Shown here: positions 16,417 through 31,338 of the stretch, piece after piece | How positions within the stretch are numbered: position 1 is the stretch's first letter | How the letters are laid out: the number at the start of each line of letters is the position of its first letter | Assembly (NCBI GenBank): GCA_007693785.1 | Contig: RECY01000026.1 | Coordinates: 62,001-126,000, forward strand | DNA length: 64,000 nt | Direction: 5' to 3' | Source of the DNA: Phycisphaerales bacterium | GTDB lineage: Bacteria > Planctomycetota > Phycisphaerae > Phycisphaerales > UBA1924 | Translations under genes and position numbers: made by a program | Notes under the pieces: generated by a model | Databases searched by the model: none | What the model was told of the DNA's origin: nothing | What the model saw: only the letters and a program-made list of their open reading frames with translations

Positions 16417-17638
16417 CCCTGCGCCCGTTCGCTCGCGTCCGCCAGCTCGCGCAGGCGCGCCGCCCGCTCGCGGACCGCCGCAGCGTCCGCATCCCGCACC
16501 GTCACGTGCCCCAGCTTCCGACCCGGGCGCGCCGACTTGCCGTACAGGTGCACCCGCGCCCCCGGCACCGCCAGCATCTCTCCCATCGGCGGCACGCCCC
16601 CGATCAGGTTCACCATCGCGCACGGCATGATCGCCCGCGTTGCCCCGAGCGCCATCTCCAGCTTCGACCCCAGCACCGCGCGCACGTGGTTCTCGAACTG
16701 GCACGTCTCGCTCGCGTCCATCGTCCAATGCCCGCTATTGTGCACGCGCGGCGCAAACTCGTTCGCCAGCAGCGGCCTCGCCGCGTCGCCCGTCTCGAAC
16801 AGCTCCAGCGCGAGCACGCCGACGTAGCCCAGGTGCTCCGCCAGCGCTCGGGCCGAGCGCTCCGCGAGCTCGCGCGTCGCGTCATCAGTCATCGCCGGCG
16901 CGTGCGTCACGCGAAGGATGCCCCCCTCGTGCACGTTCTCGCACAAGGGATAGACCCGCGCTTCGCCCGTGTGCGCACGCACGATCAGCACGCTCAGCTC
17001 CCGCCTGAACGGGATGAACGTCTCCGCGATGAGGCCGAGTTCGCCAACGAAGCCCTCGCCGCGGATCGAGCGCAGGGCCGCGTCCAGCTCGCCCGCGGCG
17101 CGGACGACCGCCTGCCCTTTGCCGTCGTAGCCCATGCGCCGCGTCTTGAGCACGATCGGCCACCCGTGCGCCTCGCCGAACGCCCGCGCGTCGGCCGCCG
17201 AATCGACCGGCGCGAACGGGTGCGTCGGGATCCCGAGCGACTCAAACAGGCGCTTCTCCACGAGCCGGTCCTGCGCCGCCGCGAGCGCCCGCGCGTGCGG
17301 CTCGCACGGGACAAGCTCCGCCAGGCGCGCCGCCAGCGCCGCCGGGACGTTCTCGAACTCGTACGTCGCCGCCGTCAGCCCGTGCGCAAAGTGCTCCAGC
17401 GCGTGATCGAGCGCCGCGCCCCCGTCGTCCGGGTCCGCCACCACGAGCTGCGCGACGTGCCCCGCGACCGCGTCGGCGCTGCGATCCAGGCACCGCGTGC
17501 GCACGCCGAGGCGCGCCGCCGCGAGCGCCAGCATGCGCCCGAGCTGCCCCCCACCGAGCACGCCGAGGATCGGCGGGTCGTTGGGTGACGCGATCGTCCC
17601 CGTGCCGTGCGTGCCTCCCGCTGGTGCGACGGGCCCGC

Positions 17639-17642
<4 letters not shown>
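16413..17642 (-). CDS. purK: N5-carboxyaminoimidazole ribonucleotide synthase PurK
   Basis: ATP-grasp enzyme that carboxylates AIR with bicarbonate in purine synthesis, feeding PurE. The 409-residue protein has the N-terminal [16 protein letters not shown], the ATP-grasp stretch [20 protein letters not shown], the metal-binding end ELFETGD...[14 protein letters not shown] and [14 protein letters not shown]. The ATG overlaps the purE stop (ATGA). About 25 extra residues (Gly/Pro/Thr-rich) precede the conserved start, so a slightly later start is possible. purE and purK are in the usual order. Confidence 0.96.
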
Positions 17643-18184
<542 letters not shown>

Positions 18185-18226: not shown

Positions 18227-19618
18227 CTATCTCGCCTTCCGCCCCCGCAGCGCACGCGCCAGCCGCGGCGGCGCCAAGTCCGGCACCATCAGCGACCCCG
18301 CACCGACCCCGAGCGCCACCTCGGCGGCCGCGTAGCCGCTCCGCGTCGCGCCCTCCATCGTCGCGGGCCAGCCCGTCCGCGTGTAATCCCCCGCGAGCAG
18401 CACGCCGCTCGGGCCGGCCGTCTCCGGGCGCAGCCGCTCGCCCTCGGGCGAGGCCAGGAACGTCGCCCGCTTCTCCTTGACCGCGCGAACAGACACCAGC
18501 TCCACCTCGCCCGCCGACGCGAAGCACGCCCGGAGATCGCCCAACACACGGTCCGCGATCTCACCCTCGCTCAGCTCCATCCACCCGTCGGCCGCGCTCA
18601 CCACCGCGTGCACGACCCGCCCCTCCTCGTCCTTCCGAAAGACCCACTGCGTCCCCACATCCAGCAGCACGGCGTGCGCCACCGCCACCACCGGGCGATC
18701 GAACACCATGTGCACGCCCAAAATCGGGCTGTGCGCGAGTTGCCCCGCCCGTCGCCCCCGCGTGTCGCCGTGATGATCGGGCAACAGCTTCGACGCCGCC
18801 GTCGCGGGGAGCGCACAGATCACGCGGTCGCCCTCGATCGCCTCGCCCGTGGTGAGACGCACCCGCTTGGCATCGAGCGACTCGACGCGCGCTCCCTTGC
18901 GCACGCCGAGCGACGCGTCCTCCGGGTCCACCATCGCGAGCTTCGCGTGCACACCTTGGTACAGCTCGCGCAGCGCGACCCCCGGCACACCGACCGCCCC
19001 CGCCGCGCGCGACGCGAACACGCCGCCCTGAAACACGTGCAGCGCGACCGACGCGTCGAGCGCCTCCGCCTCCGCGTTGCACGCGCTGACGATCACGGGT
19101 CGCCAGAACCGCGCGACCGCGCGCGCCGGCTGCCCGTGGGCCGCGAGCCAGTCGCCGAACGTGCGCCCCGCGTGCTCGCGCCTGTCGGCACGGATCGCGG
19201 CGAGCACGCCACGCGCCACCGCGCGTTTCTCGTGCCGATCGAGGAACCGCGCCCGCGCGAACGACGCCCCCGCGTGCAGTGGCGCGGGCAGCCACCACGA
19301 CGGCCGGACCGCGCTCGTGCGCGCGCCGCGCCCCTCGCCCGCGGGCTCGACAAACGTCAGCGTCTCGCTCCACGCCATCGCGTCCAGCGTGCCGAGGCGG
19401 TCGAGCAGGTCGAGATAGTTCGTGCAGCACCCCATCGCGACGTGCTGACAGTTGTCGATCACCTCGCCCGTGCGCACGTCGTCAAAACTGCTCGCGCGCC
19501 CGCCGAGCCGGTTCGAGGCTTCGAAGAGCGTCACCCGCGCCCCGGCCTCGGCGCAGCGCACCGCCGCCGCGATCCCCGCCACGCCGCCGCCCACGACCAG
19601 CACGCGCACGCCCCTCAC
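18227..19618 (-). CDS. hpnE: Hydroxysqualene dehydroxylase HpnE
   Basis: FAD-dependent enzyme that reduces hydroxysqualene to squalene, the last of three steps in the HpnCDE route. The 463-residue protein opens with the Rossmann motif VLVVGGGVAGIAAAVRCAEAG and has NRLGGRASSF, the HpnE-typical DNCQHVAMGCCTNYLDLL, FWRPVIVSACN (CNAE follows) and a C-terminal FAD block GDYTRTGWPATMEGATRSGYAA. The GTG start overlaps the hpnD stop (GTGA), indicating coupling. Together with hpnD and hpnC it forms a complete squalene synthesis unit. Confidence 0.95.
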   Translation of the reverse strand: MRGVRVLVVGGGVAGIAAAVRCAEAGARVTLFEASNRLGGRASSFDDVRTGEVIDNCQHVAMGCCTNYLDLLDRLGTLDAMAWSETLTFVEPAGEGRGARTSAVRPSWWLPAPLHAGASFARARFLDRHEKRAVARGVLAAIRADRREHAGRTFGDWLAAHGQPARAVARFWRPVIVSACNAEAEALDASVALHVFQGGVFASRAAGAVGVPGVALRELYQGVHAKLAMVDPEDASLGVRKGARVESLDAKRVRLTTGEAIEGDRVICALPATAASKLLPDHHGDTRGRRAGQLAHSPILGVHMVFDRPVVAVAHAVLLDVGTQWVFRKDEEGRVVHAVVSAADGWMELSEGEIADRVLGDLRACFASAGEVELVSVRAVKEKRATFLASPEGERLRPETAGPSGVLLAGDYTRTGWPATMEGATRSGYAAAEVALGVGAGSLMVPDLAPPRLARALRGRKAR

Positions 19619-20532
19619 GCCCGCGCCCTCTCGCGCATCCCCGCCCGCGGCACCGGCTGCACCAGCGACGACGCCACGATCGCCAGCTTCCGCGGCTTCG
19701 ACAAGCGCACCCGACCGCGACCCACGCGCGACGGGTCACGCTCGATCCGCGACAGGATCGTCTCGTACAGCCCCGTCATCGTCCGCAGCACACGCACACA
19801 GTCCGGCGCGATCATGAGCTCCAGCGCCCGCGATCGCTCGTACCGCTCCCGCGCGTACGCCGCCTGCGCGCGCACGAGCGCGGCGCAGCGGCCCGCGGGC
19901 GACCACGCCGCCAGCTCGCTCGGCGTCAGCCCGTGAGCCGCCAGCACGCTCGCCGGCACGTACACCCGCCCGGTCTCGAAATCCTCGCGGATATCCCGCA
20001 GAATGTTCGTCCGCTGGAACGCGATCCCGCGATCGACCGCCAGTTCGCTCGCACGCCCGGCGTCCGCGTGCGCCCGAAGCCCCCAGATCGCGACGCACGC
20101 CCGCCCCACCGTCGAGCCCACACGACGGCAGTATGCGTCGAGCGCCGCGTCGTCGGCGTACACCGCCTCCCCCGTCGGCTGCGACAGGTCCGCGCGAAGC
20201 CCCTCGAGCGTCATCGTGAACACGTCCCGCTCGATCGGGTATCGCGCGCACGCGTCGGCGAGCGAAACGCCCATCGCGCCGAGCGCTGTCGCGTCACGAT
20301 CGTCGAGCACCGAAGCTGTGCGCTCCGCGAATGCGTCCAGCGCCGCGCGACGGGCGCCGATCGTCTCGTGCGGATCGTCCGCGATATCGTCGGCCTCGCG
20401 CATCCACGCGTACAACGCGAACAACGCGTCCCGGCGCGGTCGTGGCGTCAAGCGCAAGCCGAGATAGAAATGCCGCGCCCGCTCACGCGTCACCGACTCG
20501 CAGTGCGCCCGCGCCTCGACCAGCGCGCTCAC
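19615..20532 (-). CDS. hpnD: Presqualene diphosphate synthase HpnD
   Basis: Condenses two farnesyl diphosphates to presqualene diphosphate. The 305-residue trans-isoprenyl synthase has the first acidic motif in YAWMREADDIADDP (DDIAD), the second in NILRDIREDFETGRVYVP (DIRED) and ARHFYLGLRL near the N-terminus. The GTG start overlaps the hpnC stop (GTGA); the upstream extension of the frame is inside hpnC. Assigned to HpnD and not HpnC by its Tyr/Phe-rich first helix, its position between hpnC and hpnE and the EDFETGRVYVP form. Confidence 0.93.
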   Translation of the reverse strand: MSALVEARAHCESVTRERARHFYLGLRLTPRPRRDALFALYAWMREADDIADDPHETIGARRAALDAFAERTASVLDDRDATALGAMGVSLADACARYPIERDVFTMTLEGLRADLSQPTGEAVYADDAALDAYCRRVGSTVGRACVAIWGLRAHADAGRASELAVDRGIAFQRTNILRDIREDFETGRVYVPASVLAAHGLTPSELAAWSPAGRCAALVRAQAAYARERYERSRALELMIAPDCVRVLRTMTGLYETILSRIERDPSRVGRGRVRLSKPRKLAIVASSLVQPVPRAGMRERARA

Positions 20533-21551
20533 GACGCACCCCCGCGCCGCCCAGCACCGAGCGCCCCGATCCGCGCACCCGCCCACGCCCGAGCCACCAT
20601 CGCGCCCCGCGCGCCCTTGCCGAGTTTCGGGCGAGCCCACAGCGTCCCGGGCTCGCGCTCCACCAGCGCCAGCGTCCGCTCGCCACCCTCGATGAACAGC
20701 CGCACGATCGGCACGAGCGCCCCGTGCCCGTGCGCACGAAGCAGGCTCAGGATCGAACGCCCCTCCTCGAACATCGCCCGCGTCCGCGCCAGCAGCGGCC
20801 CGATCGCCTCGCCGTACCGGGCGCGCACGCCCGCATCATCCCCGCGATCCAGCCACGCGCGCAGCGTGGCGTCGTCCAAGCCGGTGATCTCCGACGGCAG
20901 ATACACACGGTCGCGCTCCACCAGGTCGCGGCGGGCGTCCTGCCAGAAGTTCGTGAGCTGGAGGGCCGAGCAGACCGCGTCGCTCGTACGTACGATCTCG
21001 TCCCACCCGTGCCCGGGCGTGCGCCGCGAGGGCGGGATGCCGATCGAGAGCACGAGGCGACCGACCGGATCGGCGCTCCGCGTGCAATAGCCCAGCACGT
21101 CCGCCCACGAGGCATACCGCGTCACGCGCTGGTCCTGCTCGAACGCATCGATGAGATCCAAAAACGCCTGCTTCGGCAGCTCGCGCCGCTCGACACTGGG
21201 CCGAAGGGCCACGAAGACCGGGTGCCTCGGCTCGCCGGCGTAACACGCCTCCAGCTCCTCGCGCCACCACGCGAGCAGTTCCATGCTGTGCTCGCGCGCG
21301 CGGGGGCCGTGCCCGGTTTCGTCCGCCAGGTCGTCGGCCCATCGGCAGAAGGCGTACACCGCCGCGAAGTCATCCCGCCAACCCCGCGGCACCAACGCCG
21401 TCAGCACCGGGAAGTTCTCTTCGTGCGCCCGCGCGAGCCCGCGGCAATACGCGATCGCGGAATCCACATCGCCCCCCGACGCACGCGAGCCCGGGGGGCC
21501 GACCGCGCTCAGCTGCTCGACGATCGGACGTGTTGGATCGAGCGTGAGCAT
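20529..21551 (-). CDS. hpnC: Hydroxysqualene synthase HpnC
   Basis: Converts presqualene diphosphate to hydroxysqualene. The 340-residue protein has the first acidic motif in YAFCRWADDLADETG, the second in LTNFWQDARRDLVERDRVYLP and ENFPVLTALVPR near the N-terminus, which is characteristic of HpnC (SENFPV). The start MLTLDPTRP is preferred to an in-frame ATG 24 bases upstream that lies in a heptad repeat. It heads the overlapping hpnC-hpnD-hpnE-purE-purK run. The leader contains the repeat at 21558-21596. Confidence 0.94.
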   Translation of the reverse strand: MLTLDPTRPIVEQLSAVGPPGSRASGGDVDSAIAYCRGLARAHEENFPVLTALVPRGWRDDFAAVYAFCRWADDLADETGHGPRAREHSMELLAWWREELEACYAGEPRHPVFVALRPSVERRELPKQAFLDLIDAFEQDQRVTRYASWADVLGYCTRSADPVGRLVLSIGIPPSRRTPGHGWDEIVRTSDAVCSALQLTNFWQDARRDLVERDRVYLPSEITGLDDATLRAWLDRGDDAGVRARYGEAIGPLLARTRAMFEEGRSILSLLRAHGHGALVPIVRLFIEGGERTLALVEREPGTLWARPKLGKGARGAMVARAWAGARIGALGAGRRGGAS

Positions 21552-21557
21552 GGGAGT

Positions 21558-21596
21558 GGGGAAGGCATTCGGCATCGGGCAATAGGCATAGGGGGG
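21558..21596. repeat. Heptad repeat in the hpnC leader
   Basis: Plus-strand units GAAGGCATTC, GGCATCG, GGCAATA, GGCATAG directly upstream of the hpnC start, in the 113-base gap to the upstream crtN-like gene. Divergent from, but clearly related to, the units at 3452, 9812 and 45161. Confidence 0.7.
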
Positions 21597-21664
21597 AGGG
21601 GCGAGGAGTGGAAGCTTGCGATCTGGAGTGCGTGCCGTTGGGTTGCGGCGTCACGGTGCCCAGG

Positions 21665-23329
21665 TTACACCCCCGCCGGCTCCGGCGCTGGCTCGGCCTC
21701 GGGGGACGCACGCTGGATCGGCGCTGAGTCGCTCTTCGTTCGCGTTTTCAGCGAGATCCGCTGGGCCGCCGGGTCGGGCAGGCCCAGTTCCTCCCCGATC
21801 AGGCGGCTCGTGATCTGGCTCGACAGGAAGATCACCGGCAGCCCGCTCCCCGGGTGCGTCCCGCCGCCGACGAGCCACAGCCCCTCCAGCCCCGGCACCT
21901 TGTGCTGCGGGCGCTTGTGCAGCATCTGGTCCAGCCCGTGCGCGAGGTTGAATGTCGCGCCGAACTGGATCCCCTGCGCCCGCCAGTCGTCCGGCGTCAG
22001 CGCCAGCTCCGCCCGGATGTGCGGGCGCACGTCCAGCCCCAGCCGCTCGCGGATCTGATCCAGCGCACGCTCGCGCAACCGCGGGCCCTCGACGCTCCAA
22101 TCGATCTTCGCCCGCGTGTTCGGCGTCGGCACCAGCACGTACAGCGCGCTCCGGCCCGCGGGCGCCAGCGTCGGGTCCGTGCGGCTCGGGTTGCAGACGT
22201 AGAACGACGGATCGTCCGAGAGCGAGCCGCCGAAGCCCGCGTCGCGACCGATGTCTTCGAGGTTCTGCTTGTACCCCGCGCTCGTGTAGATCGTGTGGTG
22301 CGGGAGATCGACCTCGCGGTCGAGCCCCAGGTACAGCATGAACGTGCTGCACGAGTACTTCTTCTGATCGAAGTCCGCGTCGGTGTACCCCGCCTCGCGC
22401 AACGGCTCCGGCACCAGGTGCGTCAGCGCCCACGCGGCGTCGGCGTTGAGCACGACGTGGTCGAACGCGTGGTGCTCGCCGCCGGCGATCACGCCCGTGA
22501 CGCGCCGCCCGGAAAAGTCCAGGCTCTCGACGGGCGTGGCGAGTCGGACGCGCCCGCCGAGGGATTCGAGCGTGCGCGCCAGCCCGTGCATGAGCGCGTT
22601 GCACCCGCCGATCGGGTGCCAGATGCCGTACTCGTACTCGATGAACGGCAGGATCGTGAACAGGCTCGGGCAGTCGAACGGGCTCATCCCGAGGTACTTG
22701 CTCTGGAAGCTGACGCCGAGCTGCACCGCGGGGTGACGGAAATACTTCTTCAGCAGTTGATGCACCGACAGGTGCGGCTTGATGTGGGCGGCCGCCGCCA
22801 ACGCGTCCGGGCGCGCCAGGTCCAGCGCCGAGCGGATCGGGCGACGCAAGATCGGCTCGGCCGCGTCCAGCTTCTTGCGGTTGTCGTCGATGAAGCGCCG
22901 GAACGCCTTCCCGTCGTGCGCGTCGATCGCCGAGATCCGCTCGACCATCCGGTCCAGATCCTGCGTCGCGTTCAGCACCACCGGCTTGCCGCCCGCCTGC
23001 CCGATCACCAAGCGGTACATCGGATCCAAGCGGCGCAGGTCGGCCATGTCCGCCAGGCGCGTGCCGGCGGCCCGGCAGATCTCGTCCAGCACGTGCGGCA
23101 TCAGAAAAAACGTCGGCCCGCGATCGAAGCGGTACGTCTCGCCGTCGTCGCCTTCCAGGTCGATCCGGCTCGTCCGCCCGCCGAGCGTGGGCTGACGCTC
23201 GAAGACCGTCACGTCCACCCCACGGGCCGCGAGCAGGACGCCCGCCGCCAAGCCGCCCGGACCCGCCCCAACGATCGCGACGCGGGGCGGCTTGGCGTGT
23301 CCGGGGCTCGTGGGCGCTGGTGTGGGCAT
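21665..23329 (-). CDS. CrtI/CrtN-type carotenoid desaturase
   Basis: FAD-dependent phytoene-desaturase-family enzyme. The 554-residue protein has RVAIVGAGPGGLAAGVLLAA, FERQPTLGGRTS, RFDRGPTFFLMP, the family block SFQSKYLGMSP, IWHPIGGCNALMHGLA and the C-terminal signature WLVGGGTHPGSGLPVIFLSS. With squalene genes 113 bases downstream on the same strand, the likely role is dehydrogenation of squalene to a C30 polyene (CrtN-like). The start MPTPAPTSPGHAK is chosen because the Rossmann motif follows at residue 16; the frame runs far upstream without support. The last 40 residues are a Pro/Glu-rich tail. Whether this one or the plus-strand paralogue is the desaturase cannot be settled from sequence alone. 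Confidence 0.9.
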   Translation of the reverse strand: MPTPAPTSPGHAKPPRVAIVGAGPGGLAAGVLLAARGVDVTVFERQPTLGGRTSRIDLEGDDGETYRFDRGPTFFLMPHVLDEICRAAGTRLADMADLRRLDPMYRLVIGQAGGKPVVLNATQDLDRMVERISAIDAHDGKAFRRFIDDNRKKLDAAEPILRRPIRSALDLARPDALAAAAHIKPHLSVHQLLKKYFRHPAVQLGVSFQSKYLGMSPFDCPSLFTILPFIEYEYGIWHPIGGCNALMHGLARTLESLGGRVRLATPVESLDFSGRRVTGVIAGGEHHAFDHVVLNADAAWALTHLVPEPLREAGYTDADFDQKKYSCSTFMLYLGLDREVDLPHHTIYTSAGYKQNLEDIGRDAGFGGSLSDDPSFYVCNPSRTDPTLAPAGRSALYVLVPTPNTRAKIDWSVEGPRLRERALDQIRERLGLDVRPHIRAELALTPDDWRAQGIQFGATFNLAHGLDQMLHKRPQHKVPGLEGLWLVGGGTHPGSGLPVIFLSSQITSRLIGEELGLPDPAAQRISLKTRTKSDSAPIQRASPEAEPAPEPAGV

Positions 23330-23369
23330 CGGTGGTCCGTCAAGAGGATGGGGTGCGAGCGGGCGGGAA

Positions 23370-23384
23370 GCGTGTTCGACACGC
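23370..23384. promoter_or_regulatory. Candidate operator palindrome between the two carotenoid arms
   Basis: GCGTGTTCGACACGC, a perfect 6-base inverted repeat around TCG, lies in the 133-base region between the divergent desaturase (start 23329) and aldehyde dehydrogenase (start 23463). Its position would allow one regulator to control both arms. There is no recognisable promoter hexamer pair around it, and a palindrome of this size can occur by chance. Confidence 0.35.
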
Positions 23385-23462
23385 GCCCCGGGGATGGATG
23401 CCCGGGGGCGATTCCGGGGCGTCCTTCGGGCGGACTGTAGCGACGCCTCTAGACTTCCGCCG

Positions 23463-25043
23463 ATGCCCAAGCCCCCCCAATCCGCACCCCCGCGTTCGGC
23501 CCAGTGGCCGCTGGCGGCCCGCGTGCGCTGGGTGCGGGCCTTCCGAGCTCTCATCGTCCGCGAGCTCGACGCCCTCTGCGCGGCCATGGAGGGCGAAGTC
23601 GCCAAGACCCGCTGGGAGGCGATGACCAGCGATCTGCTCCCCCTGCTCGCGAGCTGCCGCTGGCACGAGCGACGGGCCCCCCGCCTCCTCCGCCCGAAGC
23701 CCGTCCGCGGGCGGGCGATCTGGCAGGTTGGGCAGCGGGTGCGGCTCCGGCGCGAGCCAATCGGGCGGGTCGCGATCATCGCGACGTGGAACTACCCGGT
23801 GCAGTTGCTCGGCATCCAGCTCGTGCAGGCGGTGCTCGCGGGGAGCGAGCGGGCCGGGAACCGCGTGGTGGTCAAGCCGAGCGAGCGGTGCCCGCGGACG
23901 CAGGCGCTCTTGCTGGACCTCGCCGAGGAGGCCGGGCGTCTCGCGGGGATGCCCCCGGGCGTGATCGAGCGTGCCCCGGCGACGCGCGAGGCGGGAGCCG
24001 AGCTGCTCGACGCGCCCCACCCCGGCGGCTCCCAGCCCGCCCTCTGGGGGCGGTTCGACCACGTCGTCTTCACCGGCTCGACCGAGGTCGGGCGCCGCGT
24101 CGCGTCGGCCCTCGCGGGCCCGCTCACGCCCTCGACGCTGGAGCTCAGCGGTCGCGACTCGGCCTTCGTCCTCCCCGGGGCCGACGCCGCCCTCGCCGCC
24201 CGCTCCATCTGGGCGATGGTCCTCATGAACGCCGGGCAGACGTGCATGGCCCCGCGACGCGCCATCGTCGTCGGCGAGGCGTGGGAGCCGTTCGTTGGGG
24301 CCCTGAAGCCCCTCATCGAGGGATCGTCGCCGGTGTCACTGATCGACGAGGCGGCCGCCGAGCGGGTGCGGGGGCTGGTGGCGGGGGCGACACAGCCGGT
24401 GATTCGCGGTCGCGAAGCGTCGGCGGACGACCCGCGCCTGGTGACGCCGACCGCGGTGCTGGAGGCCGACCCGGCGGGGGAAGTCGCGGGCGGGGCCCAT
24501 TTCGGGCCGCTGCTGGCGGTGGTCCGGTGCGCCACGCTCGACGAGGCCGTCGCGGCCCACGCCCTCTGCGACCAGCACCTCGCGACCAGCATCTACCCCC
24601 CGCGCGGGCGGGGCGGGCGGGCATCCGCCGAGGCGCTGGTGTCGAAGCTGGGCGAGCGCGGGCGGCTCGGCGGGAGCGTCACGATCATGGACACCGTCCT
24701 GCCCACCGCCCAGCCCGGGGCGAGCATCGCCGGGCACGGGGCGAGCGGGTGGGGCGCGAGCCGTGGGGCGGCGGGGCTCCTGGCGATGACCCGCGCGGTC
24801 CACGTGAGCACGACCTCGCCCCGCGTGCGCACGCCGCTGGGCGAGCCGCCGGCGAAGCAGCAAGCCTCGTTCGAACGGTTCGTCCGATGGTGGTACGGTC
24901 TGGGGGGCGGCCTCAAGCACGGGGCGAGGCCCGCCCCGAAGACCGATGAACAGCAGGGCGACGCGCCGGCGCGTCGGACAGCGACAGCAGCACCGCGGGC
25001 GACGGGTCACCGGGCGCACGCGACACAGGAGCGGGTCTCATGA
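23463..25043 (+). CDS. Aldehyde dehydrogenase of the carotenoid locus
   Basis: NAD(P)-dependent aldehyde dehydrogenase. The 526-residue protein has the cofactor block IIATWNYPVQLL, VVKPSERCP, FTGSTEVGRRVA, the general-base Glu in TLELSGRDSAFVLPGADA, and the catalytic Cys in NAGQTCMAPRRAIV. Context points to oxidation of a carotenoid terminal aldehyde to the acid, the job done by AldH in staphyloxanthin synthesis. The last 45 residues are a low-complexity basic tail and are atypical. Its stop overlaps the start of the next oxidase (ATGA). The start is the ATG at 23463; the open frame continues upstream but across the divergent promoter region. Confidence 0.9.
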   Translation: MPKPPQSAPPRSAQWPLAARVRWVRAFRALIVRELDALCAAMEGEVAKTRWEAMTSDLLPLLASCRWHERRAPRLLRPKPVRGRAIWQVGQRVRLRREPIGRVAIIATWNYPVQLLGIQLVQAVLAGSERAGNRVVVKPSERCPRTQALLLDLAEEAGRLAGMPPGVIERAPATREAGAELLDAPHPGGSQPALWGRFDHVVFTGSTEVGRRVASALAGPLTPSTLELSGRDSAFVLPGADAALAARSIWAMVLMNAGQTCMAPRRAIVVGEAWEPFVGALKPLIEGSSPVSLIDEAAAERVRGLVAGATQPVIRGREASADDPRLVTPTAVLEADPAGEVAGGAHFGPLLAVVRCATLDEAVAAHALCDQHLATSIYPPRGRGGRASAEALVSKLGERGRLGGSVTIMDTVLPTAQPGASIAGHGASGWGASRGAAGLLAMTRAVHVSTTSPRVRTPLGEPPAKQQASFERFVRWWYGLGGGLKHGARPAPKTDEQQGDAPARRTATAAPRATGHRAHATQERVS

Positions 25044-26686
25044 AGCGGAACAACGCCGGGCGGGATGCGCACGTGGTCGTCGTCGGGGGCGGGCTCGCGG
25101 GGCTGGCCGCCGCGTGCGACTGCGCCTCGGCCGGGCTCCGCGTCACCCTCCTCGAGCAGAACCTCCACCTCGGCGGCAAGATGAACGTCCTCGAGCAGGA
25201 CGGCTTCACCTTCGACATGGGCCCCACCATCCTCACCCTCCCCGAGGTCGTCAGCGGCGTCATCCGGCGCGCCGGACGCAAGCCCGAGGACGAGCTCGAC
25301 CTCGTCCGGCTCGACCCCCAGTGGCGCTGCATGTACGAGGACGGCGTCACGCTCGACCTGCTCGAGAACCCCGAGCAGATGGCCGCCCAGCTCGACCGAC
25401 AGTTCCCGGGCCAGAACGCCGGCGAGGGCTGGAAGACGCTCATCAACTACGCGCGTCGCATGAACCGTCTCAGCCGACGCGTCTTCTACTACCGCGACGT
25501 CGGCGGCGTCACCGACGTCATGCGCGGCACGCCCATGGGCGATTTCGACCTCCTCAAGGACGTCATGGCGATGCGCCTGCACTCGACCGTCGGCGCGACC
25601 GTCGAGAAGCACCTCCGCGAGCCCCACGCCCGCCAGCTCGCCGAGCACTTCCTCCAGTACGTCGGCTCCAGCCCCTTCCTCGCCCCCGCGATCCTTACCC
25701 TCATTGCCTCGGCACAGGTCGATCAGGGGTGCTGGTACGCGATGGGGGGCACGCGACAGGTCGCCCGCGCGCTCGAACGCATCGCGCGCGACAGCGGCGT
25801 CGAGATCCACACCGGCGTCAAGGTCGCCCGCATCGTCTGCGACGGCGATCTGGCGCAGGCCGTCGAGCTGGAAGACGGGCGACGCTTCGAGGCCGACGCC
25901 GTCGTGAGCAACTGCGACGTCCAGCGCACCGACCGCGACCTGCTCGCGACGCCGGAGGCGAAACGCGACGGGGAGCGCATCGCGAGCCGGTACACGCCCG
26001 CGTGCAGCGGCGTCGTGCTCTACCTCGGCCTGAACAAGCGGTACGACCACCTGGCGCACCACAACTTCCTGTTCAGCAAGAACAGCAAGGCCGAGTTCAG
26101 CGACATCTACGAGCTCGGCATCCCGGCGCGCGACCCGACGCTCTACCTCTGCGTCCCGAGCCGCACCGACCCCGCGCAGGCGCCCGACGGCGGCGAGGCG
26201 CTCTACGTGCTCATCCACACGCCGTACACGCGCGCCGATCACCAATGGGAAGGCCCCGGCGGGATGCTGGAACAGTACAAGCCCGTCGTCATGGACAAGC
26301 TCAAACGCTTTGGCATGGAGGACATCGAGTCGCGCATCGTCGTGGATCGTGCGCTCACGCCGACGGGGATCAAGCGGATGTACAACGCCGAGGGGGGTGC
26401 GATCTACGGGCTCGCGAGCCACGGCAAGCTGCACGGGGGCTTCAAGCCCAAAAACCGGAGCCGCGTGGTGGAGAACCTCTACCTCGCCGGCGGGAGCGTG
26501 AACCCCGGGCCGGGCGTGCCGATGGTCATCATGAGCGGCGTCACCGCGGCGAAGACGCTGTGCGAGGACCTGGGCATCGAGATCGACACCGCCGGCACGA
26601 GCGGCGAGCCGACGGTCTACCAGCGCGACGCGGTCCTGCGCCAGGACGCGGCCAACGCGGCCAGCGCGATCGGTGCGGGGGCCTGA
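25040..26686 (+). CDS. CrtI-family carotenoid oxidase/desaturase (CrtP-like)
   Basis: Second FAD-dependent phytoene-desaturase-family enzyme. The 548-residue protein has VVVVGGGLAGLAAACDCASAG, NLHLGGKMNVL, TFDMGPTILTLP, FLQYVGSSPFLAPA, GCWYAMGGTRQVARAL, CVPSRTDPAQAP and the C-terminal NLYLAGGSVNPGPGVPMVIMSG. In staphyloxanthin-type pathways a CrtN paralogue, CrtP, oxidises a terminal methyl to the aldehyde; placement directly after an aldehyde dehydrogenase fits that. It is coupled to the preceding gene by a 4-base overlap. It might instead be the main desaturase, with the minus-strand paralogue as the oxidase. Confidence 0.9.
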   Translation: MKRNNAGRDAHVVVVGGGLAGLAAACDCASAGLRVTLLEQNLHLGGKMNVLEQDGFTFDMGPTILTLPEVVSGVIRRAGRKPEDELDLVRLDPQWRCMYEDGVTLDLLENPEQMAAQLDRQFPGQNAGEGWKTLINYARRMNRLSRRVFYYRDVGGVTDVMRGTPMGDFDLLKDVMAMRLHSTVGATVEKHLREPHARQLAEHFLQYVGSSPFLAPAILTLIASAQVDQGCWYAMGGTRQVARALERIARDSGVEIHTGVKVARIVCDGDLAQAVELEDGRRFEADAVVSNCDVQRTDRDLLATPEAKRDGERIASRYTPACSGVVLYLGLNKRYDHLAHHNFLFSKNSKAEFSDIYELGIPARDPTLYLCVPSRTDPAQAPDGGEALYVLIHTPYTRADHQWEGPGGMLEQYKPVVMDKLKRFGMEDIESRIVVDRALTPTGIKRMYNAEGGAIYGLASHGKLHGGFKPKNRSRVVENLYLAGGSVNPGPGVPMVIMSGVTAAKTLCEDLGIEIDTAGTSGEPTVYQRDAVLRQDAANAASAIGAGA

Positions 26687-26691
26687 ACGCC

Positions 26692-27669
26692 GTGGTGGAC
26701 GGGCCATCCGCCAGCGAGGGTGCCGAGACCGCGCCGGGACGCGGCCCGCTCTGGGTAGCGAAGCCCAACGCGCACGTCGCGCGCTTCTTTCACCGGTACA
26801 CGCGCCGCCTGTTCTCGAAAAAGTTCCACGCCGTGCGTTTCACGCCGGGCTCGGGCGACCTGCTCCGTGCGCTGAACGACGCGTCGGAGCCCGTGATCGT
26901 CGCGATGAACCACTGCAGCTGGTGGGACCCGATGGTCGGCGTGCTGCTTGCGTCGGGCGCGACGCCGGATCGGCGCACGTTCGCGCCGATGGAGCTCGCG
27001 CAGCTCGAGCAGTTCGCGTTCTTTCGGATGCTGGGCGTCTTCGGGCTGGACCCGGAGCACCCGCGGGCGGTGGAGGCGATGACCGCGTACATCCTCGAAC
27101 AGTTCGGCTCCCCAACGAGCCGCGACCGTGAGGGAGCGGTTTCCCCGATCTCAGGCGAGGACCGCTCCCTCACGGTCGCGGCTCGTTCGGAAAGGCGTTC
27201 GCCCGCCTCGCTCTGGCTGACGCCGCAGGGCTCGTTCGCCGACGTGCGCACGCCCGCGAAACTCCGCCCCGGGGCCGCCGCCGTCGCGGCCGCCGCCTGC
27301 ACCCGCTTCCAGCACGTCCGCGTCGTCACGCTCGCGATCGAGTACGGGTTCTGGACCGATCAGAAACCCGAGGTCTTCCTCCACGCCGAGCCCGTGCCCA
27401 CGCCCGACCGCGCCGACAGCACCACCGCCTGGCACCGCGCGCTCACGTGCTCGCTGCGCAGCTCGCAGAGCGCCCTCGCCGAACGCGTCGCCGCGCGCGA
27501 TCCCGCGGGCTTCGAGCTCCGCCCCGATCTCGTCGGCGGGCGCGTCGATCGCGAACGCGCGCAGGTCAACCCGATCTACGACCTCTGGCTGCGCCTCCGC
27601 GGCCAGAGCGGCAAGGTGACCCCGCGGGATCTGGCTTCCCGCGCCCCGTCGGAAAGGAGCCGCGGATGA
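26692..27669 (+). CDS. PlsC-like acyltransferase of the carotenoid locus
   Basis: Probably adds a fatty acyl group to the glycosylated carotenoid. The 325-residue protein has the acyltransferase motif HX4D in NHCSWWDP (about residue 73), a FAPMEL block, LWLTPQGSFADVR and the later ALAIEYGF-like strand TLAIEYGFW. The GTG at 26692 begins six bases after the previous stop, with a second GTG three bases on; there is no ATG alternative near the conserved region. Residues about 141-165 come from a perfect 27-bp inverted repeat inserted in frame between a helix and LWLTPQG, so this loop is longer than usual. It overlaps the glycosyltransferase start by four bases. Confidence 0.85.
   Translation: MVDGPSASEGAETAPGRGPLWVAKPNAHVARFFHRYTRRLFSKKFHAVRFTPGSGDLLRALNDASEPVIVAMNHCSWWDPMVGVLLASGATPDRRTFAPMELAQLEQFAFFRMLGVFGLDPEHPRAVEAMTAYILEQFGSPTSRDREGAVSPISGEDRSLTVAARSERRSPASLWLTPQGSFADVRTPAKLRPGAAAVAAAACTRFQHVRVVTLAIEYGFWTDQKPEVFLHAEPVPTPDRADSTTAWHRALTCSLRSSQSALAERVAARDPAGFELRPDLVGGRVDRERAQVNPIYDLWLRLRGQSGKVTPRDLASRAPSERSRG
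27114..27187. repeat. In-frame palindromic insertion, perfect 27-bp inverted repeat
   Basis: Arms 27114-27140 and 27161-27187 are exact reverse complements with a 20-base loop. The left arm reads AACGAGCCGCGACCGTGAGG and continues GAGCGGT. The element lies wholly inside the acyltransferase gene and encodes TSRDREGAV ... RSLTVAARSE without a stop. Only one copy is in this window. Such GAGCCGCGACCGTGAGGGAG palindromes recur in planctomycete genomes to my recollection; that was not checked. Confidence 0.9.
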
Positions 27670-28874
27670 CGACGCTGCTGCTGGTCGCGCTCTGGACCGG
27701 GCTCTTCGCCTGCACGGTCGCGCTCGCGATGACCATCGCCAACCTGCGCTTCTACGCCAGGGCGACCGCGGAGCCGCTCGATCCGGCCGCGGCCCCCAGT
27801 CTCACCGTCTGCGTTCCCGCGCGCAACGAGGAAGCCAACCTCGAAGCCTGCGTGCGCTCGCTGCTCGCCTCGAACTATCCAAGGCTCGAGATCCTCGTCT
27901 ACGACGACGCCTCGACCGACCGCACGCCGGAGATCCTCGCGAGGCTCTGCGCCGAGGACGCGCGCGTGCGCACGGCCGACACCGTCCCGCTCCCCGACGG
28001 TTGGAACGGCAAGCAACACGCCTGCGACCGCATGGGGCGACAGGCGACCGGCGAGTGGCTGCTGTTCACAGACGCCGACGTCCGCTTCGAGCCCGCCTGC
28101 CTCGAACGCGCGATCGCCGAAACCCAGCGCCCACGCGCGACGGATGTGCCGGGCTCCAAGCCCGTCGCCCTCGTCAGCACCTTCCCGCGCCAGATCACCG
28201 GCACGCTCGGCGAGGCGCTCGTCGTCCCCATGATCTTCTTCATCCTGCTCAGCTACCTCCCGCTCGGGCGCATGCGCTCGACCACCGACCCCGGCGCGAG
28301 CGCCGGGTGCGGGCAGTTCCTCTGCGTCTGGAAGCCCGCCTGGCTCGAGGCCGGCGGGCACGCGGCCTTCCGCGACTCCATGCACGACGGCATCAAGCTC
28401 CCCCGCAACCTCCGACGACTCGGCTACCGCACCGATCTGTTCGACGCGACCGAGCTGTGCGCCTGCCGCATGTACCACGGCTTCGCCGCCACCTGGCGCG
28501 GCTTCGCCAAGAACGCCTACGAAGGGCTCGGCTCCGTCCCCCTGCTCGTCTTCATCACCGTCATGCACCTGTGCGGGCACGTGCTGCCGTGGATCGTGCT
28601 GCCGGCCGCGCTGCTCGGGCTTGCGGGCGTTGTGCCGCAACTCCCCATGCTCGCGCTCGTGCTCAGCGCGGGCTGCGTCGCGGGCGCGCTGATTCAGCGG
28701 GTCATGCTCGCGAGGCGCTTCAAGCAGTCCCCCGCCAGCGTCGCGCTCCACCCCGTCGGCGTCGCGCTCATGACCCTCATCCAGTGGCGCAGCCTCTACC
28801 TCGCCAAGACCGGCAGGCGCACCTGGCGCGGGCGCACGCAGGGTGAAGCCCCGACCGCCGAGCCCGCCGGGTAA
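27666..28874 (+). CDS. Family-2 membrane glycosyltransferase (CrtQ/HpnB-like)
   Basis: Likely transfers a sugar to the carotenoid acid at the membrane. The 402-residue protein starts with a membrane segment, then SLTVCVPARNEEANLEACVRSLL, EILVYDDASTDRT, WNGKQHACDRMG, the DxD-type metal site in LLFTDADVRFEP, and GCGQFLCVWK; three to four membrane segments follow (about 290-380). Two homologous groups fit: CrtQ of staphyloxanthin synthesis and hopene-associated HpnB. The carotenoid context favours CrtQ. The start overlaps the acyltransferase stop (ATGA). It is the last gene of the plus-strand arm; purB converges after 12 bases. Confidence 0.88.
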   Translation: MTTLLLVALWTGLFACTVALAMTIANLRFYARATAEPLDPAAAPSLTVCVPARNEEANLEACVRSLLASNYPRLEILVYDDASTDRTPEILARLCAEDARVRTADTVPLPDGWNGKQHACDRMGRQATGEWLLFTDADVRFEPACLERAIAETQRPRATDVPGSKPVALVSTFPRQITGTLGEALVVPMIFFILLSYLPLGRMRSTTDPGASAGCGQFLCVWKPAWLEAGGHAAFRDSMHDGIKLPRNLRRLGYRTDLFDATELCACRMYHGFAATWRGFAKNAYEGLGSVPLLVFITVMHLCGHVLPWIVLPAALLGLAGVVPQLPMLALVLSAGCVAGALIQRVMLARRFKQSPASVALHPVGVALMTLIQWRSLYLAKTGRRTWRGRTQGEAPTAEPAG

Positions 28875-28886
28875 CGCCGCGTCGGT

Positions 28887-30587
28887 TCACACCCCCCGAT
28901 CGCTCGAGCCCAGCTCGCGCAGCTCCTCCTCATACCGCTCCCGGAGCGGCTCGACCACTTCTTCTACGAACCGCTCGGTCTGCTCCACGCTCCGCCCGAC
29001 GTACCGCATCGGGTCGAGCAGGGCGTCCTCGGTCAGCAGGTGGTGGACGCTGGCGAAGGCCGCGTCGGCGCGGAGGCGCTCGATCAGGTCGTTCTCGAGC
29101 CCTTCCTGCTTCACCCGCATCCCCGCAGCCTGCGCGTGCACGCGGATCTTCTCGTGCAGCTCCTGACGGTCCCCCCCCGCGCGGACGGCGGCCATCAGGA
29201 TGTTCTCCGTCGCCAGAAACGGCAGCTCGGCCATCAGGTTCTTCCGAACCATCGCCTCGTGCACCACCAGCCCACTCGCCACCTCGTGCATCAGGTCCAG
29301 TGCCCCATCGAGCGCCAGAAACGCCTCCGGCAGGCTCAGGCGACGGTTGGACGAATCATCGAGCGTGCGCTCGAGCCACTGCGTCGCGGCCGTGTCGTAC
29401 GCGTTGCCGACGAGGTTCATCACAAACCGCGACAGCCCGCAGATCCGCTCGCACTTCATCGGGTTCCGCTTGTAGGGCATCGCCGACGAACCGATCTGCT
29501 TGTCGCCGAAGGGCTCGTCGAGCTCTTTGCGATTGGAAAGCAGGCGGATGTCGGTGGCGATCTTGTGGAGCACGGCGGCGACACTGGCGAGATCGGCAAG
29601 CACCATCGCATCGTGTATGCGCGGATATGTCTGGCCCGTCAACTCCCAGATTTCCGTTCCTGCGCGAAGCGTGATCGAAAACGACTCGGGCAGCTCTGTT
29701 TCGTCGTCCAGTTCCTGCATATCAATATCAACGTCCGATGTGCCGTACGAAATCCCATCTTCGTCAAGTGCGGAAAGATCCTCGCCATAGATAAATGATT
29801 GAAAGAAGTAGTTTTCAAGTCGATCAACATCCGTATCGTTGCCATTTAAAAGTTCAAGAAACGACGCCTGGGTGCCCGTCGCGCCGCGGAGCCCACGCCA
29901 CCTACGGTCCCACCCCGTCGAGTTATCAATCGATGTATGCACAGTCGTAAGCTCGCACGCCCAGTACGCGAGTCGGCGCCCTACGGTGACCGGTTGCGCC
30001 GGCTGATAGTGCGTGAATCCGAGCGTCGGCACGCGTAACCAGCCCGACGCCTGCTCACCAAGCGCGGATATGACGCGGACGACCTTTGCAACAATCTGGT
30101 CTGTCGCTTCGTGCATGATGAACAGGTCCGCATTGCACACCACATCCTGACTCGTACACCCCAGATGAATGATCCCCTTCGCCTCCGGGCAGGACTCGCC
30201 GAGGCAGTGGACGTGGGCCATCACGTCGTGGCGGAGCTCGCGTTCCAGTTCCGCCGCCCGCTCCAACTCAGCATCGGTGATCCCGCTCTCGCGCTCGACC
30301 ACCTTCCGCAGCGCCTCAACCTGGGCTTTGGTGACCAACGGCCCGGACGAGCCGCGACCGCCAGCCAGCGGTCCGCCCGACTCGCCCCCGCCGCCAGCCC
30401 CGCCCTTCTCCTGCCCCCAGTCCTTCGTCACCTCGTACTGCGCCTCGGCGACCGCGAGCCAGATCCGTCGCCACGTGTTGAACTTGTGCCGAGCCGACCA
30501 GAGCTTGAGCATCGCCGGGCTGGCGTTGCGGCTGGCGAGCGGGCTGGTGTACGTGTCGTGCGGGGAGGGGCTGGACGAGTTGGGCAT
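28887..30587 (-). CDS. purB: Adenylosuccinate lyase with acidic insertion
   Basis: Cleaves adenylosuccinate and SAICAR in purine synthesis. The 566-residue protein matches the eukaryote-like ADSL branch: SPLASRNASPAMLKLWS, RHDVMAHVHCLGE, IHLGCTSQDVVCNADL, TLGFTHYQPAQPVTVGRR, GTQASFLELLNG, LTGQTYPRIHD, the signature loop QIGSSAMPYKRNPMKCERI, and ATQWLERTLDDSSNRR. It is longer than the usual 430-485 for two reasons: a Gly/Ser-rich insert near 60-80, and about 44 extra acidic residues (about 225-275, e.g. GEDLSALDEDG, DMQELDDETEL) between the DVDRLE helix and LTGQTY. The DNA there is much less GC-rich than the rest (about 45% over 29701-29880 by hand count). Catalytic residues are kept, so activity is expected. 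Confidence 0.93.
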   Translation of the reverse strand: MPNSSSPSPHDTYTSPLASRNASPAMLKLWSARHKFNTWRRIWLAVAEAQYEVTKDWGQEKGGAGGGGESGGPLAGGRGSSGPLVTKAQVEALRKVVERESGITDAELERAAELERELRHDVMAHVHCLGESCPEAKGIIHLGCTSQDVVCNADLFIMHEATDQIVAKVVRVISALGEQASGWLRVPTLGFTHYQPAQPVTVGRRLAYWACELTTVHTSIDNSTGWDRRWRGLRGATGTQASFLELLNGNDTDVDRLENYFFQSFIYGEDLSALDEDGISYGTSDVDIDMQELDDETELPESFSITLRAGTEIWELTGQTYPRIHDAMVLADLASVAAVLHKIATDIRLLSNRKELDEPFGDKQIGSSAMPYKRNPMKCERICGLSRFVMNLVGNAYDTAATQWLERTLDDSSNRRLSLPEAFLALDGALDLMHEVASGLVVHEAMVRKNLMAELPFLATENILMAAVRAGGDRQELHEKIRVHAQAAGMRVKQEGLENDLIERLRADAAFASVHHLLTEDALLDPMRYVGRSVEQTERFVEEVVEPLRERYEEELRELGSSDRGV

Positions 30588-30618
30588 GGGCAAGGGTAGT
30601 GCCCGGCGAGCCCGGGGG

Positions 30619-31338
30619 TCAGCGCTCGCTCGCCTCCGGCGCGGGGACGCCAAGGCGCTGGTGGAGCCGGCGCGCCAGGCGTCGCTCCAGCTCGTGATCC
30701 CGCCCGATCGGCACGGCGTGCTGCGGCCACATCCCGCGGTCCCGCAGGTCCGGGTCGATGTGCATCGGGCTCAGGCGGATCGAGGCCGGCTCCGGACGGA
30801 ACCCGGGACGCTGCACCCGCTCGATCGTCACGCGGAACGTCGCGACCACCGGGCCTTGGTACGACCGCAGGTCGCGCCGCATCGTCGTCCGAACCGGGGG
30901 CTCGAACGCCTCGCCCGATCCGTCATCTCGCGACGCACCCGCCGGCTCCTCCAGCCCTTCGACCGACGCCGGGCTCCGCGGGCCCGACTCGGGCGGGGGC
31001 GGCTCGGCCGCGGTGAACTCCACCCGCACCGCCCGCTGGTGACGGTTCAGCGTGTCGCGCATCTCGTGACGCAGCGAGGCCTGCTCGCGATCCCAGGGCG
31101 TCGCGAGCCCGGCCGTCCCCTTGGCGCGGGTCGTGATCACGCCCTCCCGCGCGTCCACACGCTCAAGGACAAACCCCTGCCCGAGCAGCAGGTTGCGCGT
31201 CTCGCGGAACGCCTCCGCGTAGCGATCGCCCGGGAGCGTCACGCTCGGGCCGGTCGAGCCCGCGCCCCCCGCGCAACCGCCCAGCGACCACGCGCCCGCG
31301 AGCCACACCAGCACCAGCAGAACACGCGAGCATCGCAT
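30619..31338 (-). CDS. Lipoprotein of unknown function
   Basis: Not recognised. A 239-residue protein with a lipoprotein signal: MRCSRVLLVLVWLAGAWSLGGC, with the lipobox cysteine near residue 22. The mature part has DRYAEAFRETRNLLLGQGFVLERVDAREGVITTRAK, a pattern common in small lipoproteins that handle beta-sheet complexes, and a Pro/Glu-rich middle. A C-terminal basic helix (ELERRLARRLHQRL) closes it. The start is the ATG immediately before the signal peptide. It sits between purB and the M3 peptidase on the same strand with short gaps, so co-transcription is possible. Confidence 0.7.
   Translation of the reverse strand: MRCSRVLLVLVWLAGAWSLGGCAGGAGSTGPSVTLPGDRYAEAFRETRNLLLGQGFVLERVDAREGVITTRAKGTAGLATPWDREQASLRHEMRDTLNRHQRAVRVEFTAAEPPPPESGPRSPASVEGLEEPAGASRDDGSGEAFEPPVRTTMRRDLRSYQGPVVATFRVTIERVQRPGFRPEPASIRLSPMHIDPDLRDRGMWPQHAVPIGRDHELERRLARRLHQRLGVPAPEASER

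Follow-up and report, generated by a model that had tools for sequence, protein, structure and literature searches.

Gene content and organization of the locus

The 64,000-nucleotide stretch analyzed here (the window) comes from a 384,582-base contig of a Phycisphaerales bacterium (Planctomycetota; genome of 3.06 Mb, 45 contigs, 95.5% complete). Its positions 18227 to 28874 are filled by eight genes that together probably direct the synthesis of a squalene-derived C30 carotenoid. An earlier reading made from the DNA letters alone (the sequence-only reading) had placed HpnCDE, two CrtI-family proteins, an aldehyde dehydrogenase (ALDH), a PlsC-like acyltransferase, and a family-2 glycosyltransferase (GT2) here, adjacent to one another and in divergent arms; family matches bear out all eight, at the coordinates then given. 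The genes, with their predicted roles and best family matches, are as follows.

18227-19618, minus strand: HpnE, hydroxysqualene dehydroxylase, third step to squalene (TIGR03467, 385 bits, above the 283-bit cut-off)
19615-20532, minus strand: HpnD, presqualene diphosphate synthase (best NCBIfam match TIGR03465, 198.8 bits, below the 278.6 cut-off; HpnD group in the tree)
20529-21575, minus strand: HpnC, hydroxysqualene synthase (best NCBIfam match TIGR03464, 239.3 bits, below the 250.45 cut-off; HpnC clade in the tree)
21665-23329, minus strand: likely CrtN-type desaturase, squalene to C30 polyene (TIGR02734, 424 bits, above the 238.1 cut-off; N group in the tree)
23463-25043, plus strand: ALDH from the larger of the cassette-linked clades, oxidizing an aldehyde to a carboxylic acid (PF00171, 192 bits)
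25040-26686, plus strand: CrtP-type terminal (4,4') oxidase (TIGR02734, 396 bits; P group, 100/100)
26692-27669, plus strand: PlsC-like acyltransferase, CrtO-equivalent (PF01553, 20.0 bits, below the 23-bit cut-off; HX4D motif at residue 74)
27666-28874, plus strand: family-2 glycosyltransferase, CrtQ-equivalent (PF00535, 89 bits)

The minus-strand arm thus reads crtN, hpnC, hpnD, and hpnE, ending at 18227, and the plus-strand arm reads aldH, crtP, the PlsC-like gene, and the GT2 gene. The HpnC and HpnD frames share four bases (GTGA, 20532-20529), as do the PlsC and GT2 frames (ATGA), both read directly from the sequence; by their coordinates, HpnD/HpnE and ALDH/CrtP overlap as well. The HpnD open frame extends to 20640, its likely start being the GTG at 20532 that overlaps the HpnC stop, and the starts of CrtN, ALDH, PlsC, and GT2 were picked by eye within longer open frames. 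On either side of the cluster lie genes that we take, from resemblance, to be purK and purE (16413-18184) and adenylosuccinate lyase, purB (28887-30653).

The two CrtI-family proteins: a CrtP and a likely CrtN

For comparison we used two sets of loci: 40 fetched around CrtI-family matches in relatives of the same order, and the best 80 loci of named genomes out of at least 591 matching stretches, where many contigs are short and counts are therefore lower bounds. The sequence-only reading left it undecided which CrtI paralogue desaturates and which oxidizes, and called for a phylogeny; this resolves the matter, clearly for CrtP and with likelihood for CrtN. In a tree of 53 rows, the P rows, 25 in number, form one group (100/100) that takes in staphylococcal CrtP and the window protein at 25040-26686. 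The 24 N rows, among them the window protein at 21665-23329, likewise form a single group (92/61, rising to 100/100 when the staphylococcal pair is left out). C40 CrtI, represented by four rows, makes up a group of its own (100/100), with both window paralogues outside it.

The references for this tree were the crtOPQMN plasmids of S. xylosus and S. equorum, where we took CrtN to be the gene overlapping CrtM and CrtP to be the gene after CrtO, and the C40 CrtI of Pantoea and Roseobacter. For the references from Azospirillum brasilense Sp7, Limimaricola, Gluconobacter, and Microvirga, N and P were assigned from similarity and gene order; a Cytobacillus protein was called P on similarity, and rows from relatives' loci took the label of their best BLAST hit, so that the staphylococcal pairs and the C40 enzymes are the independent anchors. 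The tree left out ten locus prefixes and took in seven named loci; it replaced an earlier tree, built on 24 of the 40 loci and including rows for HpnE and CrtD, in which branches were long.

By BLAST, the window CrtN is 46-49% identical to four alphaproteobacterial CrtN-type proteins, and the window CrtP shares 47-52% identity with four CrtP-type proteins from alphaproteobacteria and 34-36% with the Staphylococcus and Cytobacillus proteins. Both are sister to the corresponding proteins of three relatives, G012, G021, and G064 (100/98 for CrtN and 99/95 for CrtP). As judged by sequence, the 25040-26686 product is clearly a CrtP-type terminal oxidase, and the 21665-23329 product is likely a CrtN-type desaturase.

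Squalene supply and squalene sinks

A profile search of the genome returned two SQS_PSY genes only, hpnC and hpnD of the window. In the synthase tree their products fall in the HpnC and HpnD groups, apart from CrtM, and with no third SQS_PSY gene found, the search yielded no CrtM in this genome. The window HpnC shares a clade with Limimaricola HpnC (100/99); it groups with the HpnC proteins of its order, without a close partner. HpnD carries the motifs DDIAD and DIRED and HpnC carries DDLAD and DARRD. Two polyprenyl synthases are also present, either of which may be a CrtE-like enzyme.

Two outcomes had been named in advance as contrary to a C30 pathway, and neither turned up. On the one hand, HpnC and HpnD account for the SQS_PSY genes found, and both CrtI paralogues lie outside the C40 group, rather than CrtB being present with paralogues in the C40 clade. 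On the other hand, hopanoids as the only squalene product are not indicated: a whole-genome search with TIGR01507 found no hopene cyclase near the cut-off (best match, E 1.3e-4).

We then tabulated by hand the matches over cut-off in 151 genomes of the order. CrtI-family genes occur in 60 (a count that takes in C40-type genes such as that of G053), HpnE in 101, and hopene cyclase in 85. The 101 HpnE genomes divide into 35 with both cyclase and a CrtI-family gene, 47 with the cyclase only, 18 with a CrtI-family gene only, this genome among them, and one with neither (G030); nearly every HpnE bearer (100 of 101) therefore has a squalene sink. Conversely, 53 of the 60 CrtI-family genomes have HpnE, the others being G012, G021, G053, G064, G081, G135, and G139 (Fisher p 3.4e-6 for the association, uncorrected for kinship). 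To judge by the predicted proteins, the carotenoid cassette is the only convincing squalene sink in this genome.

Two observations on related enzymes may be recorded here. In G007 and G053 (loci L058 and L067), a separate C40-type CrtI lies beside a phytoene-synthase match, and G007 also has C30 genes. In Microvirga ossetica (L047, 13397-15055), a single 552-residue protein of the squalene/phytoene-synthase family looks like an HpnC-HpnD fusion; both HpnC and HpnD of the window align to it in two stretches.

Acyltransferase, glycosyltransferase, and aldehyde dehydrogenase

The PlsC-like protein, which matched no NCBIfam model, is 28-34% identical to four cluster-linked PlsC proteins, including that of A. 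brasilense; its alignment with a cluster-linked Limimaricola lysophospholipid acyltransferase covers 281 residues at 34% identity. BLAST against two Staphylococcus CrtO proteins gave no match at E 1e-3. By sequence, then, this acyltransferase resembles the type proven in M. extorquens AM1 and not the CrtO of staphyloxanthin. GT2 is 37-48% identical to four cluster-linked glycosyltransferases (48% to that of A. brasilense) and 27% identical to S. equorum CrtQ.

The PlsC-like gene also contains an in-frame insert, a palindromic repeat element:

27118-27183, no strand assigned: palindromic repeat of two 22-base arms (27118-27139 and 27162-27183)

The insert, encoding the protein segment TSRDREGAVSPISGEDRSLTVAARSE, is missing from 13 of 13 aligned homologues. 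Allowing up to one mismatch, a 19-base pattern of its arm has 21 copies in the genome, of which 12 form six opposed pairs 41-86 bases apart; the pattern read backward, as a control, gave 0.

The ALDH tree has 32 rows. Besides the ALDH of the window, 12 come from the loci of relatives and 11 from named loci; five are plasmid references, two were taken from M. planeticum, and one is an unlinked fragment. Twenty-five cassette-linked rows, including the window's, lie on one side of a branch (100/99), and their hosts are Planctomycetota, Verrucomicrobiota, Acidobacteriota, Azospirillum, Skermanella, and acetic acid bacteria. A second group holds the ALDHs of Limimaricola, Tropicimonas, and Microvirga, and both M. 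planeticum rows fall outside the 25-row clade. Four residues that we assume to be catalytic are all present in the window ALDH; across the tree, Asn and Glu are found in 32 of 32 rows, Cys in 31 (the fragment lacks it), and Lys in 29. When M. planeticum was searched with the Microvirga cluster ALDH, the best of six matches was 32% identical, and no ALDH of 120 bits or more was found near its cassette. As the query itself lies outside the 25-row clade, this is a weak test, made in one Methylobacterium genome.

The cassette in relatives and in other phyla

CrtN, ALDH, CrtP, PlsC, and a glycosyltransferase are all present in 24 of the 40 relatives' loci; 27 of the 40 have CrtN and CrtP, and 26 of these also have ALDH. 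Among the best 80 named loci, all five genes occur in at least 43, CrtN in at least 60, and an ALDH of 120 bits or more in at least 61. Such recurrence indicates that the grouping is not due to chance. The hosts belong to Planctomycetota, Verrucomicrobiota, Acidobacteriota (Granulicella), and Alphaproteobacteria; a search of viral contigs for CrtP relatives found none.

In some loci the cassette is split. CrtN and ALDH stand together without CrtP in L060, L061, L063, L065, and L069, four of which belong to one genus, and CrtP, PlsC, and the glycosyltransferase stand together without CrtN in L059, L062, L064, and L066, all of one genus. Given the shared genus, about two independent cases tie ALDH to CrtN. 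In L053 (G011), no separate ALDH frame was detected between CrtN and CrtP, and the CrtP open frame runs to 1099 codons, possibly an ALDH-CrtP fusion or a missing stop.

The hpn genes are the rarer part of the arrangement. Searches at E 1e-8 found HpnC, HpnD, and HpnE in none of the 40 relatives' loci, and by printed coordinates this genome alone, among the relatives of the order, has HpnE less than 20 kb from CrtN or CrtP; the next nearest spacing is about 26 kb, in G039, whose other SQS_PSY genes lie elsewhere. Similarly, in 30 HpnC loci (from this genome and relatives, with flanks up to 1.5 kb), CrtN flanks only the HpnC of the window. Outside the order, hpn genes occur in at least two of the best 80 named loci (Roseitranquillus and Tropicimonas), and hpnCDE directly adjoins the cassette in three alphaproteobacteria. 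Since Limimaricola and Tropicimonas hold all eight functions together, the complete locus is not unique.

A different synthase follows crtN in close relatives

Four relatives (G012, G021, G064, and G135) have one SQS_PSY-family gene directly after crtN on the same strand, and in a fifth, G149, such a gene lies on the same strand beside a CrtN-like remnant (locus L095). The same arrangement is seen in the named loci L128 and L137. These stand-alone SQS-family synthases are located as follows.

L076, 6866-7828; L078, 11680-12882; L079, 12395-12856; L093; L095; L128, 192-1421; L137, 4663-5982: SQS-family synthase after crtN

None of the five relatives has HpnE over cut-off (the HpnE-like match of G021, at 250 bits, is below it), and four of them have a CrtI-family gene over cut-off, G149 being the exception. 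G064 has a second SQS_PSY match besides the crtN-linked one. The synthases form their own group (100/100), apart from CrtM, CrtB, HpnC, and HpnD, in a tree that contained no proven squalene synthase. Their nearest NCBIfam model is TIGR01559, squalene synthase, with scores far below its cut-off in the three that were scanned (78.8, 95.1, and, for a fragment, 30.5 bits), and in a PDB search with one of them, a putative farnesyltransferase and squalene synthases rank ahead of CrtM. In the window, therefore, hpnCDE occupies the position that a one-gene synthase has in the closest sampled cassettes.

A bolder proposal, to which we would give somewhat less than even odds, is that the place after crtN is a supply slot filled by different enzymes, that the slot enzyme is a one-gene squalene synthase, and that the cassette ALDH clade is a dedicated carotenoid ALDH whose Methylobacterium counterpart is missing. 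If so, the three-for-one swap would show squalene, not dehydrosqualene, to be the intermediate kept by selection, and the slot enzyme would be a one-gene bacterial squalene synthase for C30 pigments.

Proposed pathway and alternatives

The scheme in which HpnCDE supplies squalene and CrtN, CrtP, ALDH, the glycosyltransferase, and the acyltransferase follow, largely in agreement with the sequence-only reading, is the best-supported one. HpnD, HpnC, and HpnE would convert two molecules of farnesyl diphosphate via presqualene diphosphate and hydroxysqualene to squalene, which CrtN would desaturate to a conjugated C30 chain. CrtP would then turn one or both terminal methyl groups into aldehydes, and ALDH would oxidize the aldehydes to the acid; GT2 would place a sugar on the acid, and the PlsC-like enzyme would place a fatty acid on the sugar. 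The expected product is a diapocarotenoic acid (mono- or dioic) that lies in the membrane as its acylated glycosyl ester. We put the probability that the locus makes such a squalene-derived C30 carotenoid at about 86%. The gene content, the separation of CrtN and CrtP by phylogeny, the failure to find a rival precursor or sink enzyme, and the conservation of the cassette are observations made here; the chemistry of all the steps, the sequence in which oxidation proceeds, how many ends become acids, and the identity of the sugar and fatty acid would follow those of characterized relatives.

Several points weigh against this assignment. The locus is known here from its genes alone, and the pigment is deduced from them. 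HpnC and HpnD score below their curated cut-offs and the PlsC-like protein below that of Pfam; CrtN joins Staphylococcus CrtN at 92/61 only, and the labels of the non-staphylococcal N and P proteins come from gene order and similarity. Some cassettes of the same order pair CrtN with another synthase, so that the cassette by itself does not prove a squalene substrate. As for ALDH, the two AldH candidates of M. extorquens were dispensable on deletion and AM1 is left without an assigned AldH, according to excerpts of PMC10448405; in A. brasilense, aldH lies in the cluster, outside the deletions described in the excerpted text of PMC13274349. Two matches to PF13243 (SQHop_cyclase_C), of 24.3 and 22.6 bits, exceed the Pfam cut-off of 26.1 bits only when frame neighbours are added (30.5 and 36.2 bits). 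We take them to be repeat proteins of another kind, given that less than half of the model is covered in each case and that the match to TIGR01507 is very weak. Finally, in a genome that is 95.5% complete and in 45 contigs, a CrtB, CrtM, or hopene cyclase may have gone unseen.

Staphylococcal CrtN acts on dehydrosqualene (diapophytoene), and the precursor could be the same here, with HpnD or HpnC working in the manner of CrtM and HpnE being incidental. The SQS-family synthase that follows crtN in four relatives, and sits beside a remnant in a fifth, all five being without HpnE over cut-off, would be compatible with this. However, HpnC and HpnD group with their namesakes and not with CrtM, HpnE is far above its cut-off within the same run of overlapping genes, and deletion of crtNPOQ in A. 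brasilense builds up squalene (excerpts of PMC13274349), which together make a dehydrosqualene precursor improbable. Much the same low likelihood attaches to the idea that the C30 backbone is as proposed and GT2 and PlsC make another end group or act on other lipids, the product being a C30 acid that is free or methyl-esterified. The corresponding glycosyltransferase and acyltransferase of M. extorquens PA1 leave the dioic acid unmodified (excerpts of PMC10448405); L090 has CrtN, ALDH, and CrtP with no PlsC or glycosyltransferase match in the visible 3 kb after CrtP, and L089, of the same genus, has no such match in its visible 1.3 kb. Yet the PlsC and GT2 genes share four bases directly after crtP, and in the loci of one genus mentioned above, CrtP, PlsC, and the glycosyltransferase are kept together even without CrtN.

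Least credible is a locus for C40 carotenoids, to which we assign a very slight chance. Two CrtI-family genes could be CrtI and CrtD, G007 and G053 do carry a C40-type CrtI beside a phytoene-synthase match, and either polyprenyl synthase of this genome might serve such a pathway. But both paralogues lie outside the C40 CrtI group (100/100) and the SQS_PSY genes found are HpnC and HpnD only; with no phytoene synthase found and no C40-type CrtI, we rejected this possibility and retain the squalene-derived acylated glycosyl ester as the probable product.

Comparison with known systems

The pathway is already known, and the window is an ordinary, compact member of it. A. brasilense Sp7 has the same eight functions as hpnCDE, crtNPOQ, and aldH, and deletion of hpnCDE or crtNPOQ abolishes its carotenoids (excerpts of PMC13274349). 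Its proteins are 48% (CrtN), 52% (CrtP), 48% (glycosyltransferase), 36% (ALDH), and 31% (PlsC) identical to those of the window; there, however, hpnCDE is at a separate locus and aldH is divergent to crtN, whereas in the window hpnCDE comes after crtN and aldH runs into crtP. In Limimaricola variabilis (L045, a plasmid) and Tropicimonas (L195), a span of about 9.5 kb holds the full eight functions, and hpnCDE adjoins crtN. In these two, hpnCDE is divergent from crtN rather than co-directional, and the ALDH belongs to the other clade and follows the glycosyltransferase on the opposite strand, unlike that of the window.

M. extorquens AM1 shares the squalene route, CrtN, CrtP, the glycosyltransferase, and the PlsC-type acyltransferase, and its product is 4-[2-O-11Z-octadecenoyl-glucosyl]-diapolycopenedioic acid. 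Its glycosyltransferase and acyltransferase have been proven by deletion and complementation, and it has no CrtO homologue, according to the excerpts of PMC10448405 from which these data come. There, hpnCDE is located with shc and the AldH is unassigned, whereas the window has an ALDH in the cluster and the search of its genome found no shc. The staphyloxanthin operon crtOPQMN has homologues of CrtN, CrtP, and GT2 and the same acid-sugar-fatty acid logic. The sequence-only reading had equated the window set with it, apart from HpnCDE in place of CrtM; that replacement stands, but the equation fails at the acyltransferase, which BLAST did not match to the two Staphylococcus CrtO proteins. A gene-for-gene equality is thus rejected at both CrtM and CrtO.

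Planctopirus limnophila, of the same phylum and another class, reportedly makes a squalene-derived C30 carotenoid (Santana-Molina 2022, as cited in PMC11958385 and PMC12078418). Deletion of hpnD gives white colonies in P. limnophila and S. maiorica (excerpts of PMC11958385). As of 2025, all five characterized compound classes of the phylum came from Planctomycetia, and excerpts of that year's review report no characterized secondary metabolite from Phycisphaerae (PMC12078418); our search of titles and abstract openings found no tested carotenoid pathway in Phycisphaerae.

What is new is that the CrtN-ALDH-CrtP-PlsC-glycosyltransferase cassette turns up repeatedly, both within the order and in further phyla, and that most of the linked ALDHs sampled form one clade. 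The locus extends a proven pathway to Phycisphaerae, and it offers two leads: the relatives with a single synthase where the window has hpnCDE, and the linked ALDH clade, which may point to the enzyme for a step that lacks an assigned one in M. extorquens.

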